64,000 nt of DNA from Capnocytophaga felis (GTDB taxonomy: Bacteria > Bacteroidota > Bacteroidia > Flavobacteriales > Flavobacteriaceae). Where the stretch lies: the NCBI RefSeq assembly GCF_009684755.1, contig NZ_BLBC01000007.1, forward strand, positions 125,482 to 189,481, read 5' to 3'. Made by a program: the position numbers and the translations under genes. Positions 20,439 to 36,378 of the stretch are shown piece after piece (position 1 is the stretch's first letter; every line of letters starts with the position of its first letter). The notes beneath the pieces are model-generated. The model was not told the DNA's origin. It was given only the letters and a program-made list of their open reading frames with translations, and did no database searches.

Positions 20439-21512
20439 ATGCTTGACAGATTAAACATTGTAAAACAACGTTTTGACGAAATTTCGGATTTGATTATCCA
20501 ACCCGATGTTATTTCCGACCAAAAACGTTACATTCAGCTCAATAAAGAATACAAAGAACTTAAAGAACTTATCGATAAAAGAGAAGAATACATTCTGGTA
20601 ACCTCCAACATCAGTGAGGCAGAGGAAATTATCGCCAATGAAACCGACCCCGAAATGGTGGAAATGGCAAAAATGCAGCTCGACGAAGCCAAAGAAAAAC
20701 TTCCGCAGTTGGAAGAGGAAATCCGCTTTATGCTTATCCCAAAAGACCCCGAAGATGCCAAAAATGCAGTGATGGAAATCCGTGCGGGAACGGGAGGCGA
20801 CGAGGCTTCCATTTTTGCAGGAGATTTATACCGAATGTACACAAAATATTGTCAATCAAAAGGTTGGAATACGTCCGTAATGGACTACAACGAAGGAACT
20901 TCGGGCGGATATAAAGAAATTATCTTCGAAGTTACGGGCGATAACGTGTACGGAACGCTCAAATTTGAAGCCGGTGTACATCGTGTGCAACGTGTTCCGC
21001 AAACCGAAACACAAGGACGCGTACATACCTCAGCTGCAACGGTTATGGTACTTCCCGAGGCGGAAGAATTTGACGTAGAGCTTGATATGGCAGACGTTAA
21101 AATCATCAGAACGACCTCAACAGGACCTGGGGGGCAGTCGGTAAACACAACCTATTCTGCCATTCAGTTACAGCATATTCCCACAGGGATTGAAGTGCGT
21201 TGCCAAGACGAAAAATCACAGCATAAAAACTTGGATAAAGCCCTGAAAGTGTTGCGTTCGCGTTTGTATGAAATGGAATTGGCGAAAAAAATGGAAGCAG
21301 ATTCGGCACGACGAAAAAGTATGGTTTCCAGTGGGGACAGAAGTGCTAAAATCCGCACGTATAACTATCCGCAAGGGCGTGTAACCGACCACCGCATCGG
21401 GCTGACGCTCTATGATTTGCAAAACGTAATCAACGGTGATGTACAACGCCTTATCGACGAGTTACAACTTGCTGAAAACACCGAAAAACTCAAAGAAAAC
21501 GATATGTTTTAA
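20439..21512 (+). CDS. prfA: Peptide chain release factor 1
   Basis: A 357-residue class I release factor that reads UAA/UAG and triggers peptide release on the ribosome. The GGQ motif that contacts the peptidyl-transferase centre is present ([11 protein letters not shown], near residue 230). The RF1-type blocks [21 protein letters not shown] and [19 protein letters not shown] are clear (each shown in part in other members). Promoter and terminator enclose it as a single gene. It is the last clearly core gene before the restriction-modification island. Confidence 0.97.
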
Positions 21513-21520
21513 TAATGAAA

Positions 21521-21548
21521 AGACGATGCTCCAACATCGTCTTTCTTT
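21521..21548 (+). terminator. Terminator of prfA
   Basis: Stem AGACGATG/CATCGTCT with a 6-nt loop, followed by TTCTTTTA. Confidence 0.85.
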
Positions 21549-21602
21549 TATATCCGACCATAAAGCAACATAAAAATCCGTAACTTATATTGATATCTAA
21601 GA

Positions 21603-22619
21603 ATGAAAAATATACTATTGGATATAGGAACAAACTCGACAGGGTGGGCATTGGTTGATAAAACCAAATCCAAAATTGAAAGTTTGGGAGCTTTTATTAA
21701 TGGCAAGAATACAGCTAAACCCTTTCTGAAATGGGCAGGCGGAAAAACGCAACTGATTTCGGAAATAGAAAGAAATTTACCTTCAAAACTTGTGCAAGGT
21801 AATTTTACCTATATCGAACCTTTTGTAGGGAGCGGAGCGGTTTTGTTTTGGATGCTAAACAATTTTCCGAATTTGAAAAAGGCGGTGATTAATGATATTA
21901 ACCAAGACCTTATCAATACCTACAAAACAATAGCTTCGAATCCGAACGAGTTGATTTCTATTCTCGAAATTTTGCAAAGTGAATACCACGATTTAGACGG
22001 AAACGACGAAAAGAAAAAACAATATTATTACGACAAAAGAGCTTTGTACAATACTCGAAAGGAAGAAAAAACCAGTCAGTCGGCGTTGTTTATCTTCCTG
22101 AATCGCACTTGTTTCAATGGCTTATATCGTGTCAATAGGAAAAATGAATTTAATGTACCGATGGGAAGCTACAAAAAGCCCACCATTTGCGATACAGAAA
22201 ATCTTTTGGCGGTCAGTGAGGCGTTGCAGAAAGTAGAAATTTTGTGTGGCGATTTTGAGCAAACACTCCCTTATGCAGAAGAAAATACATTGTTTTATTT
22301 CGATCCACCGTATAAACCGCTTAGCGAAACCTCGAGTTTCAATTCGTATGCAAAAGATGAATTTAATGATGAGGAACAAATTCGATTGCGAGATTTTTGC
22401 AGTAAGTTGGATAAACTAAATTACCATTGGATTTTGAGCAACTCCGATGTAAAAGGAAAAAATGCAGAAGATAATTTTTTTGATGACCTTTACGCTGAAT
22501 TTTCAATACAAAGAGTAAATGCCAAACGAAGTATCAATGCCAATCCTAAAAAAAGAGGTCTATTGACTGAATTGTTAATTACAAATCAAATTACACCCGA
22601 ATATGCGAACACCCTTTAA
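21603..22619 (+). CDS. dpnM: DpnM-type adenine methyltransferase with a Cas9 RuvC-I-like N-terminus
   Basis: A 338-residue protein. Residues 39-330 form a complete Dam/DpnM-type methyltransferase that makes N6-methyladenine at GATC: KPFLKWAGGKTQL, the SAM-binding FVGSGAV (74-80), the NRTCFNGLYRVN block, catalytic DPPY (234-237), and LSETSSFNSY. Residues 1-32 are foreign to this family. They read MKNILLDIGTNS followed by TGWALVDKTK and KIESLGAFI, matching the RuvC-I start of Cas9 proteins (LDIGTNSxGWALV) including the catalytic Asp (Asp7). There is no ATG at the expected methylase start, so the Cas9-like codons supply translation initiation. The restriction gene overlaps its 3' end by 17 bp. 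No other cas gene or array was found. Confidence 0.93.
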   Translation: MKNILLDIGTNSTGWALVDKTKSKIESLGAFINGKNTAKPFLKWAGGKTQLISEIERNLPSKLVQGNFTYIEPFVGSGAVLFWMLNNFPNLKKAVINDINQDLINTYKTIASNPNELISILEILQSEYHDLDGNDEKKKQYYYDKRALYNTRKEEKTSQSALFIFLNRTCFNGLYRVNRKNEFNVPMGSYKKPTICDTENLLAVSEALQKVEILCGDFEQTLPYAEENTLFYFDPPYKPLSETSSFNSYAKDEFNDEEQIRLRDFCSKLDKLNYHWILSNSDVKGKNAEDNFFDDLYAEFSIQRVNAKRSINANPKKRGLLTELLITNQITPEYANTL

Positions 22620-23436
22620 TGAATTTCTTACTCAACTTGCTGAAACGAATGCTACATTGGATTATTTTGTTGCATTTGAAAAAATCAGTAATAATGTAGG
22701 CAAAATAGAAATGAAACTTAATCAATTGAATTATTTGATTGGGAAAGATGACTTAAAAAAGGCTGTTCAAGAACTTTTTGAAGAAAACCCAAAAGCCTTT
22801 GAAGTGTTGGATATTTTAATTGCAGTTCGGAATTCTAAATTAGCAAAAACATTTAATAGTAAGGGAGAAATAGTTTTGCTTACCACTTATTTTACTTCTT
22901 CAGAATTGATTTTAGAATACATTGAAGAAACAGGATTAGGCGAAATTTTCAGAACCAAAAAAATTACTAATTTAGTAGATTATGTTTTTGGTATCGAGGT
23001 AGGCTTAGATACCAATGCTCGAAAAAATAGAGGAGGTTCTAATATGTCAAAAGCTGTTGCTTCAATTTTTGACAAGGCAGGGATTTCGTACAAAGCGGAA
23101 GTTAATCATACAATATTTCCAGAAATTATGAGTTTGGGAACCGATGTAAAACGCTTTGATTTTGTAATTGAAACTCCCACAAAAACTTATTTGATCGAAA
23201 CCAATTTTTATAATACAGGCGGTTCAAAACTCAATGAAGTTGCCCGAGCTTACTCCGATGTTGCTATGAAAATTAATCAATATCCGCAATACGAATTTGT
23301 TTGGATTACAGACGGACAAGGTTGGCTTTCTGCAAAAAATAAATTAGAAGAAGCTTATAACCTTATCCCAAGTGTGTATAATTTGACTACGCTTGGTGAG
23401 TTTATTAAGAAAGTAAGGAAGAATATTTTAGTTTAA
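22603..23436 (+). CDS. dpnB: DpnII-type restriction endonuclease (GATC)
   Basis: A 277-residue protein related throughout to R.DpnII/MboI-type enzymes, which cut unmethylated GATC. The conserved stretch VFGIEVGLDTNARKNRGGS is followed by a PD-(D/E)xK-like core, RFDFVIETPTKTYLIETNFY (residues about 183-202), with Asp and Glu-Thr-Asn in place of the canonical ExK. Other DpnII relatives show the same ETNFY block. It starts 17 bp inside the end of the methylase gene, so the two are translationally linked. A candidate ATP-dependent nuclease gene follows 17 bp downstream. Confidence 0.92.
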   Translation: MRTPFNEFLTQLAETNATLDYFVAFEKISNNVGKIEMKLNQLNYLIGKDDLKKAVQELFEENPKAFEVLDILIAVRNSKLAKTFNSKGEIVLLTTYFTSSELILEYIEETGLGEIFRTKKITNLVDYVFGIEVGLDTNARKNRGGSNMSKAVASIFDKAGISYKAEVNHTIFPEIMSLGTDVKRFDFVIETPTKTYLIETNFYNTGGSKLNEVARAYSDVAMKINQYPQYEFVWITDGQGWLSAKNKLEEAYNLIPSVYNLTTLGEFIKKVRKNILV

Positions 23437-23453
23437 TTTTAAAGGTTTGCTAT

Positions 23454-25214
23454 ATGTTATATATTTCTAAAATCAGAATAAAAAATTTTAAATGTTTTGG
23501 GGAATTAGAGGTAGAGTTTGATCCTAACTTCAATTTAATTATTGGCGGAAATAATAGTGGTAAGTCTACAATATTTGATGCTTTAAGGCTTTGGCAACTT
23601 GCATTTCAAAAATTTTTAAAAGATAGAACAAATAATCAACAAAGCTCATTTTACGCTCATCAATATTCAAGTTTTACAATTGATGATATTTCTTTTTTAA
23701 GAATCCAAGATTTTAAAAATCTTTATAAAAATTCACGAATTAGAGATTTTGAAATATCATTGACAATTTCAAATGGAGATAATGAAGTTACTTTACCCAT
23801 TATCTTTACTCGAACAACAAAAGATCAGGTTATAAATTTTCAATTACTTAAATCTCCTAGTTTGAGAAAAGGCATATCTAAAAAATTGTCAGAAATATTA
23901 AATCTTCCTTTTGGGTCGGATTTTAAAGAGACTTTTCTTTTTACATACATAAATCCAATTTTTTTACTTCCAAATAATGAACCATTGTTTGCCAAAGGGT
24001 ATATATTAAATAAACTTAGAGAATCTAAAGCAAATGAAATAATTAGAAATCTTCTTTTTGCAATATCTCCAGAACAAAAAAAGTTAAAAAAAGAAAACAA
24101 AAATGATAAACTGATTCATATTGAAGAAGATATTAAAAAGATACTAAACATAGATGATATTTCATTTTCAAAAAGACTTGAAGATGAAGAGAGTTATATA
24201 AAAATCTTTTCTAAGAATGAAAATTTAAATACCTTAGTTGAAATTAATCAACTTGGTAGTGGAACTATTAATGTATTAAACATATTATCTGTTTTAGCTT
24301 ATGGTGATTATGAAAGATTTAAACTTAATGCTTTATTATTAGACGAACCCGATTCTCATTTACACTTTAACCACCAAAGTAGATTATATCATCACTTAAA
24401 AAAGGTATCTGAAGATACTAATAAACAAATATTCATCATTACACATAATTCAACTTTGATTTCGCAATTTGATAAAGTTTTATTTCTTGAGAATAATAAG
24501 AAAAAGATAAATACAATTCTGTTGGGTGAATATTTAGAAAATCATTTAAAAAAGATAGATGAAAGTCATTACAATGTAATGAAAGATTTGAGTGAAACTA
24601 AAAAAGAAAAAGAGAAATTAGAGAATTTATTAAGAGATAGCAATAAACCAGTAATTTTTTGTGAAGGAACTTCTGATGTTTCTATATTACAAAAGGCTTT
24701 TAAAAAATTATACAATACAGAATTATTTAACAACGAAATTAAGATCGAAGGTGGCGGAGGAGAAGGTGAAGTTGGTAATAAAGTAAAAAGCAATAAAACA
24801 GAAAATATTATTATTGGAATTTTAGATAATGATTTCGCTGGTCAGAAGCAAAGAGATAAAATTATTAAAGACCATAACTTTAATAAAATTGATGATACTT
24901 ACTGTGTAAATAGTAAAAATCACTTAGTTATTCTTCCTATTCCAGATTTTAGAAAGAGTGCCGCTGTGTATTTTGAAAAGAAAACATTTATTGAATACTT
25001 GTTTTCTGATGCAACACTAGAAGAAAAATTGGAAGTAGCATTAACTCAACACAGAGGAGAAACATTCAAACGATTTGATGACACAAAAATTGATTCTATA
25101 AAATCTCAAGTAATAAAGAATATAGATAAATTAGATAAATGTGATTTCATTCATTTTAAACCCTTATTTGAAAAAATTGCAGAAATAATAGGATATAAAT
25201 TGCCTAATGCCTAA
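23454..25214 (+). CDS. OLD-family AAA ATPase with C-terminal TOPRIM nuclease domain
   Basis: A 586-residue ABC-type ATPase fused to a TOPRIM domain. It has Walker A GGNNSGKST (31-39), an ABC-signature-like LGSGTINVLN, Walker B ALLLDEPDSHLH (about 293-304) and an H-loop ITHN. The TOPRIM part starts VIFCEGTSDVSIL (Glu about 402) and contains the metal-binding GILDNDFAG (about 455). OLD and GajA proteins of this build are DNA nucleases in anti-phage defence. No UvrD-like helicase (GajB) follows, so it fits stand-alone class 1 OLD. It lies between the restriction gene (17 bp) and the second methylase (8-bp overlap), so it belongs to the operon. The gene is visibly more AT-rich than its neighbours, a sign of separate origin. 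Confidence 0.88.
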   Translation: MLYISKIRIKNFKCFGELEVEFDPNFNLIIGGNNSGKSTIFDALRLWQLAFQKFLKDRTNNQQSSFYAHQYSSFTIDDISFLRIQDFKNLYKNSRIRDFEISLTISNGDNEVTLPIIFTRTTKDQVINFQLLKSPSLRKGISKKLSEILNLPFGSDFKETFLFTYINPIFLLPNNEPLFAKGYILNKLRESKANEIIRNLLFAISPEQKKLKKENKNDKLIHIEEDIKKILNIDDISFSKRLEDEESYIKIFSKNENLNTLVEINQLGSGTINVLNILSVLAYGDYERFKLNALLLDEPDSHLHFNHQSRLYHHLKKVSEDTNKQIFIITHNSTLISQFDKVLFLENNKKKINTILLGEYLENHLKKIDESHYNVMKDLSETKKEKEKLENLLRDSNKPVIFCEGTSDVSILQKAFKKLYNTELFNNEIKIEGGGGEGEVGNKVKSNKTENIIIGILDNDFAGQKQRDKIIKDHNFNKIDDTYCVNSKNHLVILPIPDFRKSAAVYFEKKTFIEYLFSDATLEEKLEVALTQHRGETFKRFDDTKIDSIKSQVIKNIDKLDKCDFIHFKPLFEKIAEIIGYKLPNA

Positions 25215-26010
25215 CCCCTACTACATATCAAACAACAAAGATTTTTATCTTCTGCACGGAGATACAATGGAGCTTTTGCCTCAAATCAATCGTGAGTTTG
25301 ATATGATATTTGCCGATCCGCCTTATTTTTTGTCCAATGATGGACTTTCTATCCAAAACGGACAAATTGTAAGCGTAAATAAAGGTAAGTGGGACAAATC
25401 ACAAGGATTTGAATTTATCAATGATTTCAATCGTCAGTGGCTTTCTTTGGTTCGCGAAAAAATGAAAGACGACGCTACGATATGGATTAGCGGAACGATG
25501 CACAATATTTTTTCTGTAGGGCAAATTCTCATCGAATTGGGTTTTAAAATCCTCAATATCATTACTTGGGAAAAGACCAACCCGCCACCTAACTTTTCGT
25601 GTCGCTATTTTACCCATTCTACCGAGCAAATCATTTGGGCGAGGAAACACGAGAAAGTTCCGCATTACTTCAATTACGAATTGATGAAACAACTCAACGG
25701 CAACAAACAAATGAAAGATGTTTGGAAACTTCCTGCCATTGCACCTTGGGAAAAATCGTGTGGTAAACACCCTACACAGAAGCCTCTTTCGGTTTTAACG
25801 CGATTGATTTTAGCATCTACTCACCGCAGTGCGTGGATTTTAGACCCCTTTACGGGAAGTTCTACCACGGGCATTGCCGCCAATCTTTTCGGAAGAAATT
25901 TTGTAGGCATCGACAAGGAAAAAGATTTTTTAGAACTCAGTAAAAAAAGACGAGTTGAAATAGAAAATATTACAATTAGAAATCAAATTCTTCATAAAAT
26001 AAAAACATAA
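25207..26010 (+). CDS. dpnA: DpnA-type second adenine methyltransferase
   Basis: A 267-residue beta-class methyltransferase. The catalytic motif is FADPPYFLSNDG (DPPY at about 36-39), and the SAM site is LDPFTGSSTTGIAA near residue 212. NPPPNFSCRYFTHSTEQI and GKHPTQKPLSVLTRLI are close to M.DpnA, the S. pneumoniae enzyme that methylates GATC also in single-stranded DNA. In S. pneumoniae the order is dpnM-dpnA-dpnB. Here the restriction gene and an OLD-family gene precede it. It overlaps the OLD gene by 8 bp, which points to translational coupling. Confidence 0.93.
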   Translation: MPNPYYISNNKDFYLLHGDTMELLPQINREFDMIFADPPYFLSNDGLSIQNGQIVSVNKGKWDKSQGFEFINDFNRQWLSLVREKMKDDATIWISGTMHNIFSVGQILIELGFKILNIITWEKTNPPPNFSCRYFTHSTEQIIWARKHEKVPHYFNYELMKQLNGNKQMKDVWKLPAIAPWEKSCGKHPTQKPLSVLTRLILASTHRSAWILDPFTGSSTTGIAANLFGRNFVGIDKEKDFLELSKKRRVEIENITIRNQILHKIKT

Positions 26011-26016
26011 ACCAAA

Positions 26017-26370
26017 ATGACCATCAAAAAAATCTACGCCTGTTGGGTATATGTGAGCGATTTGGTAGTTTCCAAAGCATTCTTTCAGAAATTAGGATTT
26101 GTACTGAAATTTCAGGAGGAAGATTGGGTGGAATTCGATTTGGGAGCGACTTCTTTTGCTATTCTCAAACGTCCTGCCGATAAAGGAAAGGTCAAACCGC
26201 AAAAAACAAGGGTTATGTTTGAAGTGGACGATATGGAAAACCTTTACGAAACCCTGAAAAGCCAAAATGTTCGCTTTGTTGGCACTATCCGATATGAAAC
26301 TTACGGAAAACTACTTACCTTTGAAGACCCTGATGGCAATTGGTTTGAGTTTTTTGAAGATAAAAAGTAG
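26017..26370 (+). CDS. VOC-family (glyoxalase/bleomycin-resistance fold) protein
   Basis: A 117-residue single vicinal-oxygen-chelate domain protein: VYVSDLVVSKAFFQKLGF at the start and LLTFEDPDGNWFEFFED at the end (metal-ligand Glu in the last strand). Members include antibiotic-binding proteins, dioxygenases and isomerases. The short length fits a bleomycin-resistance-like binding protein but the substrate is unknown. It starts 6 bp after dpnA and may be read through from the R-M operon, although it need not be functionally related. Confidence 0.82.
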   Translation: MTIKKIYACWVYVSDLVVSKAFFQKLGFVLKFQEEDWVEFDLGATSFAILKRPADKGKVKPQKTRVMFEVDDMENLYETLKSQNVRFVGTIRYETYGKLLTFEDPDGNWFEFFEDKK

Positions 26371-26483
26371 AAATATCAATCAATTCAACTAAAAACAATT
26401 ATCAAAATTAAAAACTTCTCTTATTAAAAACAGCTTTTATCACAAAGTTTTCACAAAAAAAAATATACATTAATTATTTTTCA

Positions 26484-26491
26484 TACCTTTG
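26484..26491 (+). promoter_or_regulatory. Bacteroidetes -7 element for the BIG2 lipoprotein gene
   Basis: TACCTTTG preceded by TTTTTCA. The paralogous gene at 37637 has the same TTTTTCATAC context around its own -7 element. Confidence 0.6.
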
Positions 26492-26589
26492 TCGCAGATT
26501 TTAAATTATCAAAAGCAAATAAAACTCATATTTATTGTTGTTTGAATTAAAATCTTAATAAATTAGAAATAACTTAAAAAATTAACAAA

Positions 26590-27777
26590 ATGAAAAAAAG
26601 TCTATTTTTATTATTATGCCTTATTTTAGGAATTGTATCGTGTTCGAAAGATAAAGAAGAACCAAAACCTATTGAACTGACACCAACAATTGTTCTTTCT
26701 GAAAATTCTCCTGTGAAATTAGTGGAGGGGCAATCCAAAGAAATTCAAGTTAGTGGAGAAAATTTGAAAGCGTTTACAGTAACTTCGTCAAATGCAGAGG
26801 TTGTAACTGTTAGTGCCAAAGAGAAGATGTTTGTCCTTGAAGCAAAATTAGCAGGAACAGCCACCATTACCGTTACTTCAAAAAATGTTTCAAAAGACCT
26901 TATTGTGGAAGTTTCGCCTAAAAATGTTTTAGTGCAACGTATTGAATTCAATGAACAAAATAAATTTCCTGTTGGAAGAAATGCCACATTGAATTTCACT
27001 ATATTTCCGGAAAATGCAACCAACAAAAAATTAAAATGGGAGTCGAATAATCCCAACGTGGTAAGGGTAGATGAAAACGGAGGCATATTTGTGTTAAATA
27101 AACCGGGGCAACAAGCAACCATAAAAGCATCAGCCACAGACGGAAGTAATGTTTCCGCAGAAATAACAATTATAGCCTTTAACATTGTCAATGAACTGAA
27201 TATTCGTATAGGAGAGGAAAAAGCTATGGCAGTAGGTAGCGAATTTGTCTTACAATATGATGCTTATGGTATTAATCGTAATGTACCTCCAACTGATAGC
27301 TCTGTTTCGTGGAAATCTGATGCTCCGGAAGTGGTATCAGTTGATGCAAATGGAAGAATAACTTGTCATAAAGAAGGACGTGCACAAATTACGGCTACTG
27401 CTAATGACGGTTTTGGAGCACAGGCACAGATTCTTATCAAATCGATTGTTCCTATTAACAAAATAAAGATTAATGGTCAGAGTAATAATGGAGCAATCTC
27501 TTTGAAAAAAGGTACAAGTCTTCCTCTTGTAATTACTACTTTTGAAGAAGATAAATTAGTAGAGACAATAAACGGAGGAAAATCCCAAAGCCAATATGTT
27601 ACGATTCATTTTTCAAAAAGAACAGAGAGTACTACTTATCTGGCACAGATAAGTCGAGAGGGACTGCTACAAGCAAATTACAAAACAGGTACTTTTATCC
27701 TCAGAGTCAGTTATGAAAATAGTTTAATTTCAAATGAATCAGTTGATTGTGAAGTAACTGTAACAATAACGGAGTAA
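26590..27777 (+). CDS. Ig-like (BIG2) repeat surface lipoprotein, copy A
   Basis: A 395-residue lipoprotein (Cys18 in GIVSCSKDKEE). The acidic/Lys-rich residues after Cys fit the Capnocytophaga surface-export signal. Three to four BIG2-type beta-sandwich repeats follow, seen as recurring LKWESNNPNVVRVDENG, VSWKSDAPEVVSVDANG and GRAQITATANDG. Such repeats are found in bacterial surface proteins and adhesins. The C-terminal 80 residues are unlike the repeats. A paralogue of nearly the same length lies 10 kb away at 37637 with a very similar promoter. It is followed by a terminator. The binding partner is unknown. Confidence 0.88.
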   Translation: MKKSLFLLLCLILGIVSCSKDKEEPKPIELTPTIVLSENSPVKLVEGQSKEIQVSGENLKAFTVTSSNAEVVTVSAKEKMFVLEAKLAGTATITVTSKNVSKDLIVEVSPKNVLVQRIEFNEQNKFPVGRNATLNFTIFPENATNKKLKWESNNPNVVRVDENGGIFVLNKPGQQATIKASATDGSNVSAEITIIAFNIVNELNIRIGEEKAMAVGSEFVLQYDAYGINRNVPPTDSSVSWKSDAPEVVSVDANGRITCHKEGRAQITATANDGFGAQAQILIKSIVPINKIKINGQSNNGAISLKKGTSLPLVITTFEEDKLVETINGGKSQSQYVTIHFSKRTESTTYLAQISREGLLQANYKTGTFILRVSYENSLISNESVDCEVTVTITE

Positions 27778-27808
27778 AGAGATAAAAAAAGAATAAAAGA
27801 AACTATAA

Positions 27809-27842
27809 AAACCCTTTGGAAGTTTTTCTGAAGGGTTTTTGT
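27809..27842 (+). terminator. Terminator after BIG2 lipoprotein A
   Basis: Stem AAACCCTT/AAGGGTTT with a 14-nt loop, followed by TTTTG. Confidence 0.8.
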
Positions 27843-27961
27843 TTTTGATGAAATAAGTAAATTTCCATAAAATACATTCGTAATTCTTCAATGAATATAA
27901 AAAATCCTCCCTAAAAATTAGGAAAATAAATCCTAAATATCTAATTTTGACTGCAAAAGAA

Positions 27962-28238
27962 AGTAACAAGTTACGGGAGACAAGTATAAAGTGTAAAGGA
28001 TAAAAGAGAAAGTAACAAAATCCAAATAGTAAGTTAGAAATAATCAAAAGTGATAATAAAATACACAAAAGTAAGTTCGCAAAACAGGAAAGTCAGTGTA
28101 AAAAACAGACGAGTCAGTACGGAAAACACAAAAGTAAGTGTAAAAAACACGCAAGTTAGTACGGAATGACCTCTTCTTTTAGTAGAAAATCAAAAAGTTA
28201 GTACGGAAAATAGAAAAGTGACTTGATAAAATAAAAAT
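27962..28238. repeat. 21-bp-period degenerate tandem array (about 12 units)
   Basis: AGTnAGT-type unit starts fall at 28028, 28049, 28070, 28091, 28112, 28133 and 28154, then in phase at 28196 and 28217 (the unit at 28175 is degenerate). Earlier units at 27962 and 27983 and at 27990 and 28011 lie in shifted registers. The consensus is roughly AGTCAGTACGGAAAACACAAA, unrelated to the other arrays. It fills most of a 513-bp gap; the rest (27843-27961) is AT-rich with nothing recognised. Confidence 0.88.
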
Positions 28239-28290
28239 CCTTGATGAAAAAATAAAAATATAATCGTTTAACTATAAAAAATATAAAATT

Positions 28291-28947
28291 ATGGCTTCTA
28301 AAATCTGTTTTACAAACGAAGAAATGCTTCAAAATGCTAAAGTCCTTTTTGAAACATTGGAAAATAATAGCAAAATTGCCGAGAAATTGGACGATTATGG
28401 CTATTCTGAATCGGAAATTGCTAAGGGAAAAGCATTATACGAAAAGGCTCAAGCTAAATATGGCTCTAACAAGAAAGAAACTGAAGAAGAACGTGTTGCG
28501 TATCTGAATTTCAAACAAAAACTGGATGAAATTTCTAAATCCTATCGCGAACATCGCAACAAAGCAAAGCTCATTTTCAAAACTAATGAGGAAGCAAAGG
28601 TAAGATTATCCTTAAAGGGAAGTCCTTCAAAGTCTATAGTCGCACTTTTGGAAGAAATGATCTTGTTTTATAAGAATTTAGCCGAGCAAGAAACCCTACG
28701 TACTCCATTAGAAAGGGTAAAAATCACCCAACAGATAATCACCGAAAAGCAATCGGAAATCGCACAAACTAAAGATTTGTACGCCATTCATTCTCAGGAA
28801 AAAAATGAAAGCGAACAAGCTACTAAAGACAAAAACAAAGCCTTTGAAGCTCTCGACAAATGGACGCGTGAGCTTTACAGCTATGCGAAATACGCCCTTG
28901 CCGATGAGCCTCAGTTTTTACAAATATTTGGCAAAACAGTACGATAA
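28291..28947 (+). CDS. Helical hypothetical protein at the head of the immunity-like cluster
   Basis: A 218-residue, strongly helical, Glu/Lys-rich cytoplasmic protein with probable coiled coils (about 75-110 and 145-195) and a C-terminal block LYSYAKYALADEPQFLQIFG. I do not recognise a named domain. It is preceded by a 21-bp repeat array and followed by a palindromic element, and stands first in a run of small unrelated genes on the same strand. A role in immunity is only suggested by the neighbours. Confidence 0.65.
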   Translation: MASKICFTNEEMLQNAKVLFETLENNSKIAEKLDDYGYSESEIAKGKALYEKAQAKYGSNKKETEEERVAYLNFKQKLDEISKSYREHRNKAKLIFKTNEEAKVRLSLKGSPSKSIVALLEEMILFYKNLAEQETLRTPLERVKITQQIITEKQSEIAQTKDLYAIHSQEKNESEQATKDKNKAFEALDKWTRELYSYAKYALADEPQFLQIFGKTVR

Positions 28948-28975
28948 CATTCAGTTGATTTTGTTAGAGTTTTTT

Positions 28976-29037
28976 TGTCAGACTGAGCGAAGTCGAAGTC
29001 TGTAACTAATAAGGCTTCGACTTCGCTCAGCCTGACA
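28976..29037. repeat. Dispersed 62-bp palindromic element, copy 3
   Basis: Inverted repeat from TGTCAGACTGAGCGAAGTCG to CGACTTCGCTCAGCCTGACA, lying between the genes at 28291 and 29059. It could also act as a terminator-like hairpin. Confidence 0.9.
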
Positions 29038-29058
29038 CTCAAAAAAAATTAAAATACT

Positions 29059-30105
29059 ATGGAAAACAATTTACTGAAAATTTACGAATATTTTGATAAT
29101 AATGACATCAGTAGGGAAAACTTTTACAGCAAATACGGTTCGTGGTTAGGCGATGTCAATTGTATGTGTTTTCCCTTCTGTTCAGCTCCTGATGATATTC
29201 CGCAAGACTATGATTATCAGGAGGAAATCAAACTTACTAATCGGATTTTTGCTATTTTCGGATTTGGTGAGCTAAATGATGAAGATATTGAAGATATCAA
29301 GCGTGGCTGCGGATATGTATTGATGCATTACTTGTTTAAAGTCCGCAGAAACATCGGATTGGCAAAAACTTACTACGTCTCGTTTTCAATGATGAAAGCA
29401 GGAGACGATTTCGTTTTTATTCACTGCAATGATGTGGATTTAGAGATGACTTATCGGGAAATGATACTAAACAGTCACTCTTTTGAGTACGAGACAGCCG
29501 ACGAAACCGAAAAATATCACTTTGATGAGCTACTGAAATTCACAGAGGAAGTCTGTAAAGCGATTAAAATCAAAACGGAGCAAAACAAAGGAGTTTTTGA
29601 AAAGGACAATACGGCTGATGAAGCGACTTTTGATGCATTAATTTCCTTATTGAATCACGATAACTATCTGTCAGACAATGAAATTTCCGATTTAAAAACC
29701 GATTGGAAGAATATTAACGAAAATCGGAAGGTTTTTGCCGAAAAGTTAATCGATGAAGGCATTTGGTTTGAGGAAGATTTGGAATATCTTGATGATTATG
29801 AAAAAGATTATCTGTTATATTGGGCATTTACAGAAAAATTTCACGTATTTAAAGACGATTGGAAGTTTGACACGAAGGAATTAAGCCGATTTATTTCGGA
29901 AAAGATAGGTCAGCCGTTCAAAGTTACCTTTAAGGAAGTGGGCAACGATTGGGGGCTTGTGCAGGAAAAGTTGGAAAATCGGTCGGATTACACCCTGCTT
30001 GATATCGCCAGCGGAAATGACGATTGCAACTTCATTGTGGTTAAAAAGAAAGATAAAGAAATTATCTATGCCTTAGCCAATGAGTTGAATGTCCCGATTG
30101 TGTGA
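29059..30105 (+). CDS. Hypothetical protein with DUF6630-like C-terminus (putative immunity protein)
   Basis: A 348-residue acidic cytoplasmic protein. The N-terminal half contains a Cys cluster (NCMCFPFC, about 34-41). The C-terminal half (about 190-348, FDALISLLNHDNYLSD to the end) ends in LLDIASGNDDCNFIVVKKKD, which resembles the DUF6630 pattern, a domain found among putative toxin-immunity proteins. The acidic, compact, signal-less character fits an immunity protein. This assignment is tentative; the family match was made by eye. Confidence 0.6.
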   Translation: MENNLLKIYEYFDNNDISRENFYSKYGSWLGDVNCMCFPFCSAPDDIPQDYDYQEEIKLTNRIFAIFGFGELNDEDIEDIKRGCGYVLMHYLFKVRRNIGLAKTYYVSFSMMKAGDDFVFIHCNDVDLEMTYREMILNSHSFEYETADETEKYHFDELLKFTEEVCKAIKIKTEQNKGVFEKDNTADEATFDALISLLNHDNYLSDNEISDLKTDWKNINENRKVFAEKLIDEGIWFEEDLEYLDDYEKDYLLYWAFTEKFHVFKDDWKFDTKELSRFISEKIGQPFKVTFKEVGNDWGLVQEKLENRSDYTLLDIASGNDDCNFIVVKKKDKEIIYALANELNVPIV

Positions 30106-30199
30106 GAAAAAAATAAGAAACAGCACTTTTAAAATACATCGTTAAATAAAAGAAAAAAGCCAAAAAAGAAATAAAATATAATCAAAAACAGGTTAAAAG

Positions 30200-30751
30200 A
30201 TGAAAGAAATGCAAAAATTAATGCAATGCTTTATCTTATTTGCATCGGCGTTAAGCATTATGAGTTGTTCGGAAGAAAAACCGGTTACATTCAGTACGTA
30301 TAGCAAAGAATATACTTTTAAATTGAGCAATCGATTTGAAAAAAACAAAAAGTTTGACGACCTTGATTTTTTTGACAACGGAAAATATCGAATTCAAATC
30401 GAAACGAATGCAAAGACTGATGTAGGTGTGCGAAAAATTTTTGAAGAATGCAGAACGAATCCTGAAAAAACGTATCGAAATAGTTCCTTTATGACGTTTC
30501 ATCACACTGAATTTCCTGCTGAAAACGAAGAAGGATACCCAACGATGGCTTTTTATGGAGGCGGAAAGGATAAAAGCAGCATATTGCCCGTATATTACGA
30601 AGGGTATTTCTTTATGATGGAAACGCCTTATCATTTTGTACGAATTACGCTAAAACATACCGCCCGAACCAGCAATGCAATGGATAAAAATGAAGCCATT
30701 AACTATCTGATACCTATGATTAAGACTTTCCGTGAAGCAACTTATCGCTAA
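30200..30751 (+). CDS. Hypothetical lipoprotein in the immunity-like cluster
   Basis: A 183-residue protein with a lipoprotein signal peptide (Cys23 in SIMSCSEEKPV). The SEEK after Cys could serve as a surface-export signal. The mature domain is mixed alpha/beta with no recognised family. A lipoprotein immunity protein would act in the periplasm or at the surface, as some toxin antagonists do; that is inference. The next small membrane-protein gene starts 34 bp after its stop. Confidence 0.65.
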   Translation: MKEMQKLMQCFILFASALSIMSCSEEKPVTFSTYSKEYTFKLSNRFEKNKKFDDLDFFDNGKYRIQIETNAKTDVGVRKIFEECRTNPEKTYRNSSFMTFHHTEFPAENEEGYPTMAFYGGGKDKSSILPVYYEGYFFMMETPYHFVRITLKHTARTSNAMDKNEAINYLIPMIKTFREATYR

Positions 30752-30785
30752 AAAGGAAACGATATTGATTAAATACGTAGGAAAA

Positions 30786-30995
30786 ATGAAATTTTTATTC
30801 AGAATACTTCCCTTTATTTCAAAAATTATAGCTTGCTTGTACATTATGTACATTTTCTTTATTGAAAAAGGCTTGCGAAGACATAGTCCCATCAATTTTG
30901 AGACGCTAATGATGCTCGGCATACTGATGTGGCTCGTAACGATTATTTCTGAAGCTTGGAAAGATATCAAAACGCAATGGCATAAGCGAAAATAA
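30786..30995 (+). CDS. Small two-helix membrane protein
   Basis: A 69-residue protein with two hydrophobic segments (ILPFISKIIACLYIMYIFFI, 20 residues, and MMLGILMWLVTIISEAW) and a basic C-terminus. A longer reading begins at a GTG at 30732 inside the previous gene, but the ATG at 30786 directly precedes the first membrane segment and avoids the overlap. It may be functionally paired with the upstream lipoprotein. No family recognised. Confidence 0.55.
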   Translation: MKFLFRILPFISKIIACLYIMYIFFIEKGLRRHSPINFETLMMLGILMWLVTIISEAWKDIKTQWHKRK

Positions 30996-31164
30996 TCCCC
31001 TGAAGGAGAGCAAGAAGCTATATTTTTCCGTATCAGAATAAGAAAAACATATTTTGTTTTTACGAGATGAGTCAAACAAATAAAAATAAAATTTTATTAA
31101 ACATCAGATTGAGGTTTTCAGTCATTTGAGTATATTTTTATAAAAAAAGACAGAATAAAAAAGT

Positions 31165-31863
31165 ATGAAATCAATGACTTCGATGCGTATTGCCAATGTG
31201 TATGTGGTGGATACCGATGAATTTAGCAAAAGAGAGAAAGTGTTTTGTGATAAAATGTATTCGGTGATTTATTTTGCCGATTTCTTTTGTAAGAATGGCA
31301 TTTCAAAAGTGATTCGTCCGCTGAATTTATATCTGACGGATGATAAATTACAAAACGGGCAACGGTTTCAATACGGCGTAAGGCTTTGGGTAGATGTGGA
31401 AAAACTCAAAAATACGCCTGATGAGCTTTTTCCGAAGGAAGCCATTTTGCAAGTAAAACAAAGTTTGATAGATATTGCTCCAATGCACGATTGGACGAAA
31501 GAAAACATCGAACTTAATTTTGAAAAAGTACTGATAACGAACTTGCAAGGCGAATGGGCAGTAACCAAAAACATCACACATAATGATGTTAAGTTTCAAT
31601 TATTAATGCGTTACGATGGTAATAAAATAATTACCAATTCATCGGATTATATGCAGTTTATAATGAAAATAAAATTGCCCAAACAAAAGGCGACATTAGT
31701 TCCCGTATCTTTAAAGGATAAGATTGCATCGGGTATTCTCGTGCCGTCAATGGTGCGTTCGTTTTCATTTCAAAATAATATTTTGATTTTAAAAATTACC
31801 GATACACAAATTAAAAAATGGAAAGTTGATTTTGATAAAATTATTACATTAACACCTATTTAA
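31165..31863 (+). CDS. Hypothetical cytoplasmic protein in the immunity-like cluster
   Basis: A 232-residue, signal-less alpha/beta protein. It starts MTSMRIANVYVVDTDEFSKREKV (given in part as MRIANVYVVDTDEFS). No named domain was recognised. There are alternative start codons at Met4 and Met7; the first ATG was kept. The ORF is long and shows normal codon use, and the neighbour begins 22 bp downstream, so it is likely real. Confidence 0.62.
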   Translation: MKSMTSMRIANVYVVDTDEFSKREKVFCDKMYSVIYFADFFCKNGISKVIRPLNLYLTDDKLQNGQRFQYGVRLWVDVEKLKNTPDELFPKEAILQVKQSLIDIAPMHDWTKENIELNFEKVLITNLQGEWAVTKNITHNDVKFQLLMRYDGNKIITNSSDYMQFIMKIKLPKQKATLVPVSLKDKIASGILVPSMVRSFSFQNNILILKITDTQIKKWKVDFDKIITLTPI

Positions 31864-31885
31864 AATTATAAAGAGATAAGAAATT

Positions 31886-32296
31886 ATGATAAAATCAATC
31901 ACAATTGATAATTTACAAACCTATTCAGATGCGTATAAAGCAGAAATTTTTCTGCACGAAAAAAAAGTACTATTGATTTTTGAACCGGACGGCTCAGCTA
32001 TTGAAGAAACTTTGAAATTTGCAAACAAATTAATTCCGAATTTAGAGGAATTTGATGATAAGGCTAAAAAATATCTTTCAAAAGAATGTCTGGGAATTTA
32101 TAATACTGAAATTAGAAAGAAAGATGAAGCTAAGATAGACAAGAATACATTTGAAATTCAGTTGGTTTTAGATGAAATATCGTTTGTAGGAGATGATTTC
32201 GTTTTATTCTTTTATAAAGGAATTGCGGAAGATTTCACTTGGGTTGCTTCTTCCTCCGATGGAGAAAACTTTGATGAATATGACATTCTTACGTAA
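31886..32296 (+). CDS. DUF2262-like hypothetical protein (putative immunity protein)
   Basis: A 136-residue protein. The arrangement FDDKAKKYLSKECLGIYN, FEIQLVLDEISFVGDDFVLFF and a terminal acidic stretch (SSDGENFDEYDILT) resembles DUF2262/DUF6985-like domains that are often found in immunity loci. The resemblance is by eye and weak. The short region 32297-32443 after it holds no convincing gene. Confidence 0.55.
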   Translation: MIKSITIDNLQTYSDAYKAEIFLHEKKVLLIFEPDGSAIEETLKFANKLIPNLEEFDDKAKKYLSKECLGIYNTEIRKKDEAKIDKNTFEIQLVLDEISFVGDDFVLFFYKGIAEDFTWVASSSDGENFDEYDILT

Positions 32297-32443
32297 TAAA
32301 ATGAGGATTTCTAAGAAGACTAAACATTTATTATCTTATTCGTTTGGGTATTTCAATATCAAAAGTATGAACAAGATATCTATGTCATTGAGAAAAAGAT
32401 TGGATTTTGATAATGAAAAATTAAACAGCAAAGTAAAAAATAT

Positions 32444-32971
32444 ATGGAAAAGGACAACTATAGACTTGTAAAAATCTGTAAATGCGGTCATAAAGAGGAA
32501 TTTCCATTGACTAAATTAGAAGCAGCTTTCGGGCTTTTTGGTAATAAGTATTGGAAAATGCCTTGTCCTAAATGTGGTGGTACAAAATCTGATTCTGTAA
32601 GTTATAATACCCCTGAAATAGATGTAGAATTGTTTAAAATTTGGAGTGAAAATGAAGATTATGAGTTTTCGGAACAAGATGAGGATTTGATTCTTGCTAA
32701 AATGGCAAATTTATCTCTTTTGCTTGAAGCCTTAGACGATGAGCAATTTCCTAAATCCAAAAAAATTGTTGTAGTCAATGCTTTATGTACATTATTATTT
32801 GATAATTTAAAGCTTTCAGGTGAAAAATATACTGAGGAAGAAAAACAACGAATGCAAAAGAACAAAGCTATTGTCTTACCAGAACTACAAAAACGCAAAG
32901 AGAAAATTTTGGAGCATCAAAGTACCATTTGGGATTATATTTGGAAGAAAATAGCCCCTTATTTGAGTTGA
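32444..32971 (+). CDS. Zinc-ribbon hypothetical protein
   Basis: A 175-residue protein with an N-terminal zinc-ribbon-like motif, CKCGHKEEF followed by MPCPKCGGTKSDS (ligands near residues 11, 13, 41 and 44). A helical, acidic C-terminal region rich in Glu and Lys follows. No signal peptide or membrane segment. No established family recognised. It may bind protein or nucleic acid through the ribbon. Its place within the immunity-like run is its only functional hint. Confidence 0.62.
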   Translation: MEKDNYRLVKICKCGHKEEFPLTKLEAAFGLFGNKYWKMPCPKCGGTKSDSVSYNTPEIDVELFKIWSENEDYEFSEQDEDLILAKMANLSLLLEALDDEQFPKSKKIVVVNALCTLLFDNLKLSGEKYTEEEKQRMQKNKAIVLPELQKRKEKILEHQSTIWDYIWKKIAPYLS

Positions 32972-33092
32972 AAATCATAGCATCATAAAAAACTAAAGTA
33001 GAAATTGTAAATATTTTAAGATGAAATTCAGATAATTAACGTTTATATGATGAATTTACCTAATTAAAATATCTAAAAAAATAAAGCATATT

Positions 33093-34151
33093 ATGGCAAA
33101 GAAAAGAGCAACACTACCCAACGATATTTATAAGATATTGGAAGAAAACGATTTTGAAGCATTTCAAAAAGTGTTTGAAAAATGTGATATCAACGCTTAT
33201 GAACGGGATTATATCAAAAAACCGGCACTTTGTTTTTACGGCATTCCAACCGAATGGATACAATGGCTCGTAGCAAATGGAGCAAACATCGAAGCGGCTG
33301 ATTCTTACGGAAGAACGGCTTTGTGGTATCATTCTTCCGTGAATAATGTGGAAAGAGTATGTACCTTATTGACATTAGGAGCAAATATTCACACTTCCGA
33401 CACGTATAAAAATGGAGTTTTGCACGCTGCGGAAGGGAGATTTGAAGTTACACAACTTTTGGTGGAGCAAGGAGCGAATATTTCTGCTAAAAATGACAGA
33501 GGTTTGACGCCTTTACAGGAAATGTTACATCGATGTCAGAATGCAAGTATTCCGAGCGTGGCAAAAAGTGCCGCTTTATTGCTCAAATCGGGTGAAAAAA
33601 TTACCAAATTTACCAAAGAACAAGTCGTTCGCATTGGTGAAAATTTTGAGTTTCATCGTGAACGCATTAATCCTGAGTTTTTGGAAGAAACTGAAAACGG
33701 ATTGCAACAGCTTTATGCCTTGTTTAAGGTAGAGCCTGTGGCAAAACGCATTCAGCACGACGGAATTTCGCCGATAATTGTCCCCGATGATGATTTTCAA
33801 AAGCAATTTGAATACCTTTGGGACTTTTTGGTGCCGGGTTCGGGTTGTGCGAAAACCATTCAAGGCGAAGTTGTTCGTATTTCAGGGAAAATCCGCGATG
33901 AAATACTGCGGAATGGAAGCGGTAATTGGGATAAACATTTCAAAAAGATGCTTTCGGCAATGATGGTTTATTTCCAAAAAGGAAATCCGCTACAAGACGA
34001 GCAAATGCAAAAAGCCAACGAGCTAAAAACACTTCTTTATGAAGGCGATGACGACGGAGAAAACTCATTTGAATTAGCAAAATTGGCTGTTTTGTGGGTA
34101 ACGCAAAACCCGAATCCTATAACTTTGGAAAAAGTGGAGTATAAAAGGTAA
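33093..34151 (+). CDS. Ankyrin-repeat protein (putative immunity protein)
   Basis: A 352-residue protein. Residues about 25-165 contain ankyrin-type repeats, seen as LVANGANIEAADSYGRTALW, LGANIHTSDTYKNGVLHAA and LVEQGANISAKNDRGLTPLQ. The C-terminal 180 residues are helical and unassigned (QFEYLWDFLVPGSGCAKTIQ, an unusual GSGCAKT loop that is not a clear Walker A). Ankyrin proteins are frequent members of bacterial polyimmunity loci, where they probably bind toxin domains. No signal peptide. Confidence 0.8.
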   Translation: MAKKRATLPNDIYKILEENDFEAFQKVFEKCDINAYERDYIKKPALCFYGIPTEWIQWLVANGANIEAADSYGRTALWYHSSVNNVERVCTLLTLGANIHTSDTYKNGVLHAAEGRFEVTQLLVEQGANISAKNDRGLTPLQEMLHRCQNASIPSVAKSAALLLKSGEKITKFTKEQVVRIGENFEFHRERINPEFLEETENGLQQLYALFKVEPVAKRIQHDGISPIIVPDDDFQKQFEYLWDFLVPGSGCAKTIQGEVVRISGKIRDEILRNGSGNWDKHFKKMLSAMMVYFQKGNPLQDEQMQKANELKTLLYEGDDDGENSFELAKLAVLWVTQNPNPITLEKVEYKR

Positions 34152-34220
34152 GTGAGGAGAAAAAATAAAAGTTTGAATGTTTGTACCGGTAGCAAGAGAA
34201 CATTTTAAGAATAAAAAAGA

Positions 34221-34874
34221 ATGGAAAAACTAACACATCATTATAATAAGGATATCAATTGCGTGGAGGTATTACCGGAATATTTGTCCAAAGGTATCAA
34301 AATGGCAAAAAATTATCATTGCGGATTGCGAATTACTGCGGATTTTGCAGGGCTTTTTGGTCAGTTTGAAGCAACCGGTGAAAAGGTCATTTTAGATTTT
34401 TCTCCTCTGAAGAATTATCCTGATTTACCGGAACTTATCATTGAAGATAATTTCAAAATAGATAAGGTTGTTGGGGTAGAAGTGCTATACACGTTACAAA
34501 AATTAACCATTCTGAATGTAAAAAAAGTGAGTAAAAAGCTGCAAATCGATGTTTCGCAGATTCCTAACTTGGTCGATTTGCGTTTTGATTTCTCTCCCTG
34601 TATTTTGGGGTTTGGCAAGGCTATAAATCTTAATCGTTTACATATTTGGTCGTACAATAAGGAAGATTTAACAGAATTAAAGGATTTAATTCATCTAACG
34701 GATTTATTATTAGTGTATCCTTCAATTCAAAGGCTGTCAGGGATTGAAAATATGACTCGTTTAGAGAAGTTTGAGATTACATACGCCCGAAAATTGGAAG
34801 ATATTTCAGCATTGAAAGAATTACAAAAGAAACATATAATCAATCATTTGGCTTTACCTCAAAAGTTTTGGTAA
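34221..34874 (+). CDS. Leucine-rich-repeat-like protein (putative immunity protein)
   Basis: A 217-residue protein. The C-terminal half has irregular leucine-rich repeats (NLVDLRFDFSP, NLNRLHIWSYN, HLTDLLLVYPSIQ, RLEKFEITYAR), about 20 residues apart. LRR-like proteins of this type occur in polymorphic-toxin immunity loci. No signal peptide, so it is cytoplasmic. The downstream DUF4375-like gene follows after 18 bp, suggesting co-transcription. Confidence 0.7.
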   Translation: MEKLTHHYNKDINCVEVLPEYLSKGIKMAKNYHCGLRITADFAGLFGQFEATGEKVILDFSPLKNYPDLPELIIEDNFKIDKVVGVEVLYTLQKLTILNVKKVSKKLQIDVSQIPNLVDLRFDFSPCILGFGKAINLNRLHIWSYNKEDLTELKDLIHLTDLLLVYPSIQRLSGIENMTRLEKFEITYARKLEDISALKELQKKHIINHLALPQKFW

Positions 34875-34892
34875 AACAAAAATAGAAAAACT

Positions 34893-35342
34893 ATGGAGGA
34901 TTTATTTTTACTTGAAGACAATGACGATTTTACCATTGCGTTATACGAAATTCTCGCAGAAAAATGCAATCATAATCCTAATTTACTAAATTCTGTACAG
35001 AAAAAAATATTTTTGTGTATATTGTTAGAAAATTTTGGGCAGGCAGATGGTATTTTGGGATTTTTACAAGAGGAATATTCTGAATATAACGACGAAGTCA
35101 TTGAAGCATTGCGAGAGATAGGAGCTGTAAAATCAGCGGAGATTATAACTAAGGCAGTTAAATTACTTCCTGCCGATGGTTCTTGGTTTTTTGACACTTC
35201 CGATGAATATTCGGAAAAGTTGATGGCTGAACTTGACAGCGAATTTTCATACTATCCCGATGGTTTTATGAGCGATTTGTATCGTAAGTATGCGGAAAAA
35301 CATAGAGAAGAATTATGTTGTATGGAAAAGGTAAACACATAA
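34893..35342 (+). CDS. DUF4375-like protein (putative immunity protein)
   Basis: A 149-residue acidic protein. The pattern EVIEALREIGAVKSAEIITKAVKLLP followed by LMAELDSEFSYYPDGFMSDLY and KYAEKHREEL (each quoted shorter than the whole block) fits the DUF4375 domain (DMP19-like), which is frequently seen in immunity loci. No signal peptide. It starts 18 bp after the LRR-like gene and precedes an SMI1/KNR4 gene by 34 bp. Confidence 0.68.
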   Translation: MEDLFLLEDNDDFTIALYEILAEKCNHNPNLLNSVQKKIFLCILLENFGQADGILGFLQEEYSEYNDEVIEALREIGAVKSAEIITKAVKLLPADGSWFFDTSDEYSEKLMAELDSEFSYYPDGFMSDLYRKYAEKHREELCCMEKVNT

Positions 35343-35376
35343 GCGGCATTTAATCGAAAAACAACAAATTCATATT

Positions 35377-35940
35377 ATGGAAATACAAATAATCTGGCAA
35401 AAAATACGTGAGGAACTTGAAAAAATGAATTCGAAAGTAGGAAAAAGTTTCAATCCACCTGCCGAAGAAGAGAAAATACATCAGTTAGAAGCAATTATAG
35501 AACAAAAATTGCCTGAGGATTTTAAAAATTATCTTCGTACGTTTAACGGACAAAATCATCAATGGTATGAAACGCTTTTTGTTGGCTATAATGCATTACT
35601 TTCTGTTGATGAAATTATTTCGGATTATGAAATGGCATTTGAGGATGAGGAAGTTATCGATTGGTTAACTCCAAATAAAATTCAGCCCAGCATTTGGAAC
35701 AAGGGGTGGATACCTTTTGCTAATTTCAACGGCACACAACGGATTTTCATCGACTTAAATCCTGCTTGCAATGGCGTTTATGGGCAAATTGTACAACTTT
35801 GGTCAGGCATTGATATGGAAAGCGATGAAGTGGTAGTGGCAGATTCCTTTTATGAGTTTTCTCAAAAAGTATTACAATCCTTAAAAGAGAAAAGTTACGA
35901 GCTTGAAGATGATGTAATTAACATAGAATGGTTGGTGTAA
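35377..35940 (+). CDS. SMI1/KNR4 (SUKH-1) family protein, putative immunity protein
   Basis: A 187-residue SUKH-superfamily protein: the N-terminal EEEKIHQLEAIIEQKLPEDF followed by KNYLRTFNGQNHQWYETLF, then IPFANFNGTQRIFIDLNPA and GQIVQLWSG, the classic SMI1/KNR4 pattern. Bacterial SUKH proteins are well known immunity proteins against polymorphic-toxin nucleases. It is cytoplasmic. This is the firmest immunity-type assignment in the cluster and anchors the interpretation of the neighbours. Confidence 0.88.
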   Translation: MEIQIIWQKIREELEKMNSKVGKSFNPPAEEEKIHQLEAIIEQKLPEDFKNYLRTFNGQNHQWYETLFVGYNALLSVDEIISDYEMAFEDEEVIDWLTPNKIQPSIWNKGWIPFANFNGTQRIFIDLNPACNGVYGQIVQLWSGIDMESDEVVVADSFYEFSQKVLQSLKEKSYELEDDVINIEWLV

Positions 35941-36001
35941 AAGTTTCACATCTCTTTAATAGAGAAATAAATTAAAGAATAGAAAAAAACAGCTGGTAAT
36001 T

Positions 36002-36301: not shown

Positions 36302-36378
36302 TTTATTTAACAGTGTAAAAAATTGGGAGGTGATGTAAAAAGTATAAAAAGTATGATGCCTTAAAAAAGAAGTGTTTT

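Follow-up and report, generated by a model that had tools for sequence, protein, structure and literature searches.

A Cas9 RuvC-I-like segment joined in frame to a DpnII-type methyltransferase in Capnocytophaga felis, and its occurrence in other proteins

The fusion gene and its operon

The window, i.e. the whole stretch of 64,000 nucleotides of Capnocytophaga felis DNA that was analysed, carries next to prfA an open reading frame that begins like Cas9 and continues as a Dam-family methyltransferase. The gene names prfA, pyrF, nqrF, recO, lysS and Mod used here are presumptive readings of the sequences. The features of the locus are:

20439..21512, + strand: peptide chain release factor 1 (prfA), the native left flank; 97-99% identity in G019, G005, G002, G003 and G014
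21603..22619, + strand: fusion ORF of 338 aa, Cas9-like N-terminus plus Dam-family methyltransferase of a DpnII-type restriction-modification (R-M) operon
21603..21671, + strand: Cas9 RuvC-I-like segment, codons 1-23, with Met start and Asp7 kept; the probably constrained part, from Cas9 profile matches and substitution counts
21672..21716, + strand: codons 24-38, which complete the Cas9-like segment (it ends near residue 32) and form the linker; near-neutral by substitution counts
21717..22619, + strand: Dam/DpnM-type N6-adenine methyltransferase domain, residues 39-338 and stop (PF02086 E=1.3e-67, TIGR00571 E=1.7e-89)
22603..23436, + strand: DpnII restriction endonuclease, overlapping the methyltransferase stop (PF04556 E=2e-95; PADLOC REase_II E=3.6e-87)
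23454..25214, + strand: AAA/OLD-like ATPase (PF13175 E=1e-21; weak OLD-like TOPRIM PF20469 E=0.003)
25207..26010, + strand: second DNA methyltransferase of the operon, N6_N4 class (PF01555 E=4.2e-57)

Positions 21603-21716 translate as MKNILLDIGTNSTGWALVDKTKSKIESLGAFINGKNTA, in frame with the methyltransferase motif KPFLKWAGGK. An earlier, sequence-only reading had described this as a Cas9 RuvC-I-like N-terminus fused to a DpnM/Dam-type methyltransferase with the catalytic aspartate kept, and had proposed that residues 1-38 alone be compared with Cas9 models; description and comparison both held up. On their own, these residues matched the NCBIfam Cas9 model TIGR01865 (E=6e-5; 21.5 bits, below the curated cut-off of 100 bits, which makes the segment a Cas9 fragment and not a Cas9), the PADLOC Cas9 model PDLC01256 (E=6.7e-6) and four further PADLOC models of Cas9. 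A profile of 13 Cas9 N-termini, two of them from incomplete cas9 genes (L092 and L106), gave the fusion 36.4 bits, against 3.6 bits for the runner-up among 1819 stop-to-stop frames of at least 20 aa in the window; among 2000 shuffled versions of residues 1-38 the highest score was 5.1 bits. When all six frames of the genome were searched with a Cas9 N-terminus profile, the fusion alone reached E <= 0.001, with E=3.4e-10.

The RuvC-I segment of Cas9 comprises the first strands of the RuvC fold, and Asp7 of the fusion aligns with Asp8 of Cas9, so that the catalytic aspartate is present. Gly6 is missing in both the genome of the window (G000) and that of its sister species (G019), and one near-invariant Cas9 position is changed in each (T13 in G000, V16 in G019). 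RuvC-II, RuvC-III and HNH are absent from the fusion; the Cas9 models cover the first ~32 residues only, and the rest is methyltransferase. A chance or convergent resemblance, in which an RNase-H-like or ASKHA-like N-terminus unrelated to Cas9 happens to look like it, could draw on the occurrence of LDIGTNS by itself in other families and on one weak PHROGs match of residues 1-38 to a Holliday-junction resolvase (E=0.014); the Pfam profile search of the same residues returned no match. We find this explanation barely credible, since the NCBIfam and PADLOC matches of the 38 residues are to Cas9 models only, the similarity runs on through GTNSxGW, GWALVD and KIxxLG, and the DNA itself matches cas9 5' ends (81% over 57 nt to L108).

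The remainder of the protein passes the cut-offs of both Dam/DpnM profiles (PF02086, 228.6 bits against 22; TIGR00571, 300.1 against 114.85) and has the motifs KPFLKWAGGK (residues 39-48) and DPPY (D234, P235, P236 and Y237), invariant in a 27-sequence alignment. GATC specificity is predicted from the endonuclease partner, which is DpnII (PF04556). AlphaFold2, run on an alignment that took in 26 of 84 viral relatives (L257, which has a stop, and L273, L276, L292 and L304 were excluded), modelled the methyltransferase domain mostly at pLDDT > 90 and residues 1-33 at pLDDT < 50 with no packing seen; the latter value says little, because the alignment had no Cas9 rows.

The DpnII endonuclease gene adjoins the fusion gene, which marks the operon as a DpnII-type R-M system, and its composition varies among relatives. 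The second methyltransferase is also present in the operons of G005, G009, G016 and G019, and the AAA/OLD-like ATPase was not found in these four operon versions (no tblastn match at E <= 1e-8 in L069, L070, L076 and L078). In G019 the partner of the methyltransferase is a MutH/Sau3AI-like endonuclease (L069:4753-5448) instead of the DpnII enzyme at 22603-23436 of the window, so that, judged from these sequences, the endonuclease is swapped beside the same methyltransferase gene. Between about codons 160 and 309 the methyltransferase genes of G019 and G005 have identical DNA, and their 5' halves differ; comparison of the sequences thus indicates that the R-M cassette undergoes exchange between genomes. 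The interval from prfA to a pyrF-like gene (window 21513-36645) is variable in close relatives, where the R-M cassette and several genes come and go.

Origin of the fusion and constraint on its first codons

A whole-protein search of 20 genomes of the genus gave a match in 15, ten of which, including G000 itself, are close full-domain homologues (at least 62% identity) while the rest are distant. Two of the ten carry the Cas9 segment, those of G000 and G019, both next to prfA; the same N-terminus is therefore not a common property of DpnM homologues, whereas its presence on many of them would have spoken against the sequence-only reading. The other eight start with a Met 7-12 residues before KPF[LI]KWAGGK, and a narrow motif scan gave one match in genome contigs, by chance, and none in viral contigs. 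G005 and G016 have the same R-M cassette without the segment, which is presumably dispensable for restriction-modification for that reason.

DNA common with G005 and G002 stops in a terminator-like repeat after prfA, at about 21550, and only G000 and G019 share the ~50 nt upstream of the fusion ATG. As dS of prfA is 0.43 between G000 and G019 and 0.59-0.67 against G005, G002 and G003, pairing the two carriers, a single fusion event before their split would be the simplest account. The start Met of the G005 homologue aligns with fusion codon 32 or, with a one-codon gap placed manually, with codon 31, and the Cas9-type residues therefore end at about the position of the old start codon.

It had been proposed from the sequence that the R-M operon displaced a cas9 locus beside prfA and kept its 5' end. 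The order of the genes, with Cas9-type residues preceding the R-M genes, fits such a replacement in place, as does the state of G000: the full Cas9 family model found nothing in it in the 20-genome search, it lacks cas1 (found in 8 of the 20 genomes), and it lacks the G019-type CRISPR repeat (found in 5 of the 20). The relatives tell otherwise. The suggested inspection of the prfA flank for an intact cas9-cas1-cas2 revealed no cas9 nearby in any of 19 relatives, four of which have a contig end within ~2.5 kb after prfA, and cas9 scored above the cut-off in 12 of the 20 genomes at places other than prfA. In G019, cas9-cas1-cas2 and 59 repeats sit between nqrF and recO, and in G005 the CRISPR-Cas locus follows the nqr operon; in G000, nqrF and recO are adjacent, ~280 nt apart, and the site is empty. 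G019 moreover has both the fusion and an intact cas9, and cas9 DNA upstream of the ATG is not recognisable in the fusion locus when compared with 11 cas9 loci of the genus. Replacement in place is thus very improbable, and this part of the sequence-only reading is not supported.

With regard to the upstream region, we also considered that a cas9 promoter was carried along with the segment and rejected the idea; similarity to the 11 genus loci starts only 5 nt before the ATG. When 58 spacers of G019 were compared with the window and the loci, the window matches among those listed were 13-17 nt long. We take Cas9 of this group to be type II-C; in G002 and G005 a gene for 218-231 aa lies between cas9 and cas1 (L122:10743-11399 and L123:11817-12512), and it is not present in G019 or G003.

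Comparison of G000 with G019 gave 7 synonymous and 2 nonsynonymous changes in codons 1-23 (dN/dS 0.053), 3 synonymous and 8 nonsynonymous in codons 24-38 (dN/dS 0.62), and dN/dS values of 0.063 for methyltransferase residues 39-328 and 0.020 for prfA. In neutral simulations without stops, the probability of so few nonsynonymous changes in codons 1-23 was 0.0002-0.003 over four transition biases, a figure that derives from two sequences with 9 changes and from a boundary at codon 23 set after inspecting the codons; the corresponding values were 0.002-0.008 for codons 1-12 and 0.003-0.04 for all 38 codons. Because codons 1-23 change mainly synonymously, the constraint acts on residues and not on nucleotides, and we conclude that these codons are probably translated and constrained and no fossil.

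The same pattern bears on where translation begins. That the Cas9-like codons supply the ATG, with none at the KPF motif, is borne out; a TTG at codon 28 lies in frame in both species. Were translation to begin there, with the Cas9-like codons as an untranslated or separate leader, the lead-in before KPF would be 11 residues, much like the 7-12 residues of the eight homologues that lack the segment. Such an internal start, named beforehand as an outcome that would overturn the fusion, predicts constraint on codons 24-38 and none on codons 1-23, the reverse of what the counts reveal, and we give it very little credence, even though the TTG itself stands. The substitution pattern fits a segment that is translated from 21603 and kept better than it fits a fossil or a start at codon 28.

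A neutral relic is the more serious competitor. Under this explanation a stray cas9 5' end supplied the start codon and a leader at the expense of a G005-type start at fusion codon 31 or 32, and its conservation reflects the needs of translation initiation. The freedom of codons 24-38 to change is in keeping with it, and residue-level constraint in codons 1-23 is not. We consider a relic doubtful, if clearly worth weighing, and the occurrences of the segment described below bear on it further.

The same segment in other proteins

Searches beyond the genus used the Cas9 N-terminus only as query and covered the order (395 genomes), the phylum (395) and the family (397). They returned mostly full Cas9 genes, together with scraps at contig ends or in broken cas9 genes; weak matches in the phylum search (E 1e-5 to 1e-3) came from G487, G570, G462, G565, G563 and, for one match, G574. 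The family search gave seven short-frame places, of which L341, L344 and L345 were read and L342, L343, L346 and L347 lie near contig ends. Outside methyltransferases of the DpnM type, the segment was found in three kinds of protein, located as follows:

G139, L204 (G139:C1:2818000-2824500), C-terminal part at 2820068-2820376, - strand: LysS with an in-frame Cas9 RuvC-I segment
Viral contig L398:2513-4576: Mod-type methyltransferase of 688 residues (PF01555 E=4.3e-38)
L168:4579-4944, L344:3464-3808, L345:3534-3839, L382-L391, L377:4001-4327 and L393:3907-4269: small Cas9-N proteins

LysS of the single-contig genome G139 has KKKILGLDLGTNSIGYALIEDDKVVDMGARVFPDG between MRPE and its C-terminal extension, and the open frame has 598 codons, compared with 566-568 in each of the 22 other congeners; the segment occurs in one of the 23 and is absent from the three relatives (G115, G153 and G168) that were aligned out of nine. 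G139 has a cas9 of its own, which differs from the segment in its LysS. The Mod-type protein has KIKGLDLGANSIGWAMIGEKRKKIEGGIRITFPDE near residue 497, and two plasmid homologues aligned with it are without the segment. The Cas9 N-terminus profile gave 52.2 bits for the LysS segment and 32.5 bits for that of Mod. The low GC of the Mod insertion was considered as proof of recent arrival and set aside, another stretch of Mod being lower.

The third kind is a family of small proteins, 15 in number and 93-121 residues long, with the Cas9 segment at the start, a linker and two hydrophobic stretches (judged by eye), which are presumably membrane proteins to go by their sequences. Eleven of the 293 genomes of G265's genus have a frame of 95-128 codons that matches the model of the whole small protein; two further members came from the family search (G921 and G1068) and two from viral contigs (L377 and L393). 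L7, D8, G10, S13, I14, G15, W16 and D20 are invariant in the 14 that were aligned, and Asp8 is also present in the fifteenth (L393); the catalytic Asp is retained in all the in-frame cases, LysS and Mod included. NCBIfam searches of five of the small proteins gave sub-threshold matches to Cas9 or RuvC only. Five of the 11 genomes have a Cas9-sized match and six have none, and the small protein therefore does not require Cas9 in its genome. The protein of the window stands outside this family, sharing the first part only before it turns into methyltransferase; as to the donor of its segment, models of Cas9 and of the small proteins score alike over ~34 residues.

Defence-type genes neighbour the small protein at 11 of 15 loci, in six contexts if near-identical loci are counted once. 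AbiEi and AbiEii lie directly upstream in L390, and an AbiEii-like gene does so in six near-identical loci (L383, L384 and L386-L389, as two ORFs in L389); it was profiled in L387 only, where it fell just below the cut-off (PF08843 E=2.5e-4) with no PADLOC match. In L168 a CBASS 4TM effector and a cyclase are found two and three genes upstream, in L385 a PDC-M04A/DUF3800 gene two genes upstream, and in L377 a weak JetD-like gene directly upstream (E=1.9e-4). In L344, LmuB/PDC-M68B-like pieces immediately precede the small protein and PDC-S15 immediately follows it; the neighbours of L344 and those of L345 were searched with PADLOC only. One profiled neighbour each of L345 and L393 was not of defence type, and none of that type showed in L382 and L391, whose neighbours were read without a profile search.

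Mobile elements and other genomes also contain Cas9 N-termini in other states. A plasmid search (60 listed of 67 records) gave mostly rows annotated as Cas9, and the three matches read were two frames (1047 and 127 codons) with a Cas9 N-terminus and, on the Arcobacter plasmid CP146529.1 (L216:3001-3126), a stand-alone ORF of 41 codons with the Cas9 N-terminus only, annotated as hypothetical protein; a short ORF of this kind is also present in G029. A phage search with the Cas9 N-terminus returned 21 records, the best at E 0.006. Among viral contigs, a first set of nine had long Cas9-like frames throughout (836-1377 codons), and a second set of eight comprised two small proteins, one Mod and five contigs already read as Cas9. 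In G544 a degenerate copy of the cas9 5' end (L251:2470-2538) lies ~200 nt upstream of the intact cas9 and looks as if left by an in-place exchange of cas9.

Such scraps, in G544, in G029 and on the Arcobacter plasmid, favour the relic in that stray cas9 5' ends evidently exist. Pairs within the small family do not prove constraint on the segment either: across 10 pairs, codons 1-20 differ by 0-3 synonymous and 0-4 nonsynonymous changes, and nonsynonymous changes outnumber synonymous ones in the pairs L382-L390 and L385-L391. What a relic does not account for are the segments inside LysS and Mod, which supply no start codon. That the segment recurs in four kinds of protein, with similar borders that run from the Cas9 start to about GVRIFPxG, argues for more than cas9 debris, with the reservation that each fusion case is known from one or two genomes and that the sequences are short. 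Together with the substitution pattern, this speaks against the preference of the sequence-only reading for a remnant over a selected fusion.

A probable kept module and its relation to known systems

We favour, at a probability of roughly 0.58, the reading that the segment is a recurrently captured and kept Cas9 RuvC-I module that was joined once to a GATC methyltransferase before the two sister species split. The joint would lie at, or close to, the start codon that an ordinary DpnII-type GATC methyltransferase originally used, translation would begin at 21603, and the segment would persist as an N-terminal module, one case of a wider in-frame grafting onto LysS, a Mod-type methyltransferase and small proteins. 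It could then serve as a short interaction tag on a flexible linker, by which some partner meets the Cas9 RuvC-I surface; the methyltransferase would go on protecting GATC sites as usual. A recognition surface may be the cause of the recurrence. Against the reading stands that G000 has no Cas9 for the segment to interact with.

An extension that we rate as improbable is that of a mobile 'integrated decoy', in which pieces of Cas9 that are seen by phage or plasmid inhibitors were copied onto proteins that are costly for an invader to disturb. Loss of methylation by the restriction methyltransferase would unleash the paired endonuclease, disturbance of lysyl-tRNA synthetase would stop translation, and the small membrane proteins would be placed near CBASS, AbiE and other defence genes, such that an inhibitor aimed at Cas9 trips a second line of defence. 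For the small proteins the mirror version is equally open, namely that mobile elements use the segment to compete with or sequester functions of Cas9.

Should the segment prove to be a functional module, a piece of Cas9 would live outside Cas9, on restriction enzymes, a synthetase and defence-linked small proteins; short Cas9 matches in genomes would not all be broken cas9 genes, and the question arises of what recognises the RuvC-I segment of Cas9. The parts are already known, and we rate the arrangement as new on the basis of a limited full-text search of the open literature, which found no report of such grafts.

Residues 39-338 correspond to the GATC methyltransferases (DpnM/Dam) of DpnII-type and also of Sau3AI/MutH-type R-M systems, and the operon shares with the DpnII type the DpnII endonuclease and a second methyltransferase; the difference lies in the start, where DpnM/Dam homologues have 7-12 residues before KPF[LI]KWAGGK and the fusion has the Cas9 segment instead. 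With Cas9 it shares the N-terminal ~32 residues, including the catalytic Asp, GTNSxGW and KIxxLG, and it differs in lacking the other parts of Cas9 and Gly6 and in residing in a genome in which no CRISPR-Cas was found. In the integrated decoys of plant NLR proteins, a copied piece of a targeted protein is fused to a defence protein. The likeness to these would be one of working only, for a decoy role that is here proposed by analogy.

Two precedents from Cas9 biology were considered. PcrIIC1, a pro-CRISPR factor encoded as an accessory protein with type II-C Cas9, has a PIN domain and reportedly binds Cas9 at its C-terminal helix (PMC13153721, PMC12669027); it was not retained as a precedent, being a PIN-domain protein and not a Cas9-derived segment. 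Shuffling of Cas9 in situ is reported in Flavobacteriales (PMC12669027) and could leave 5' scraps of cas9 near an intact cas9, as in G544. The fusion described here differs in lying away from a CRISPR locus and in belonging to a set of unrelated proteins that carry the segment in frame.
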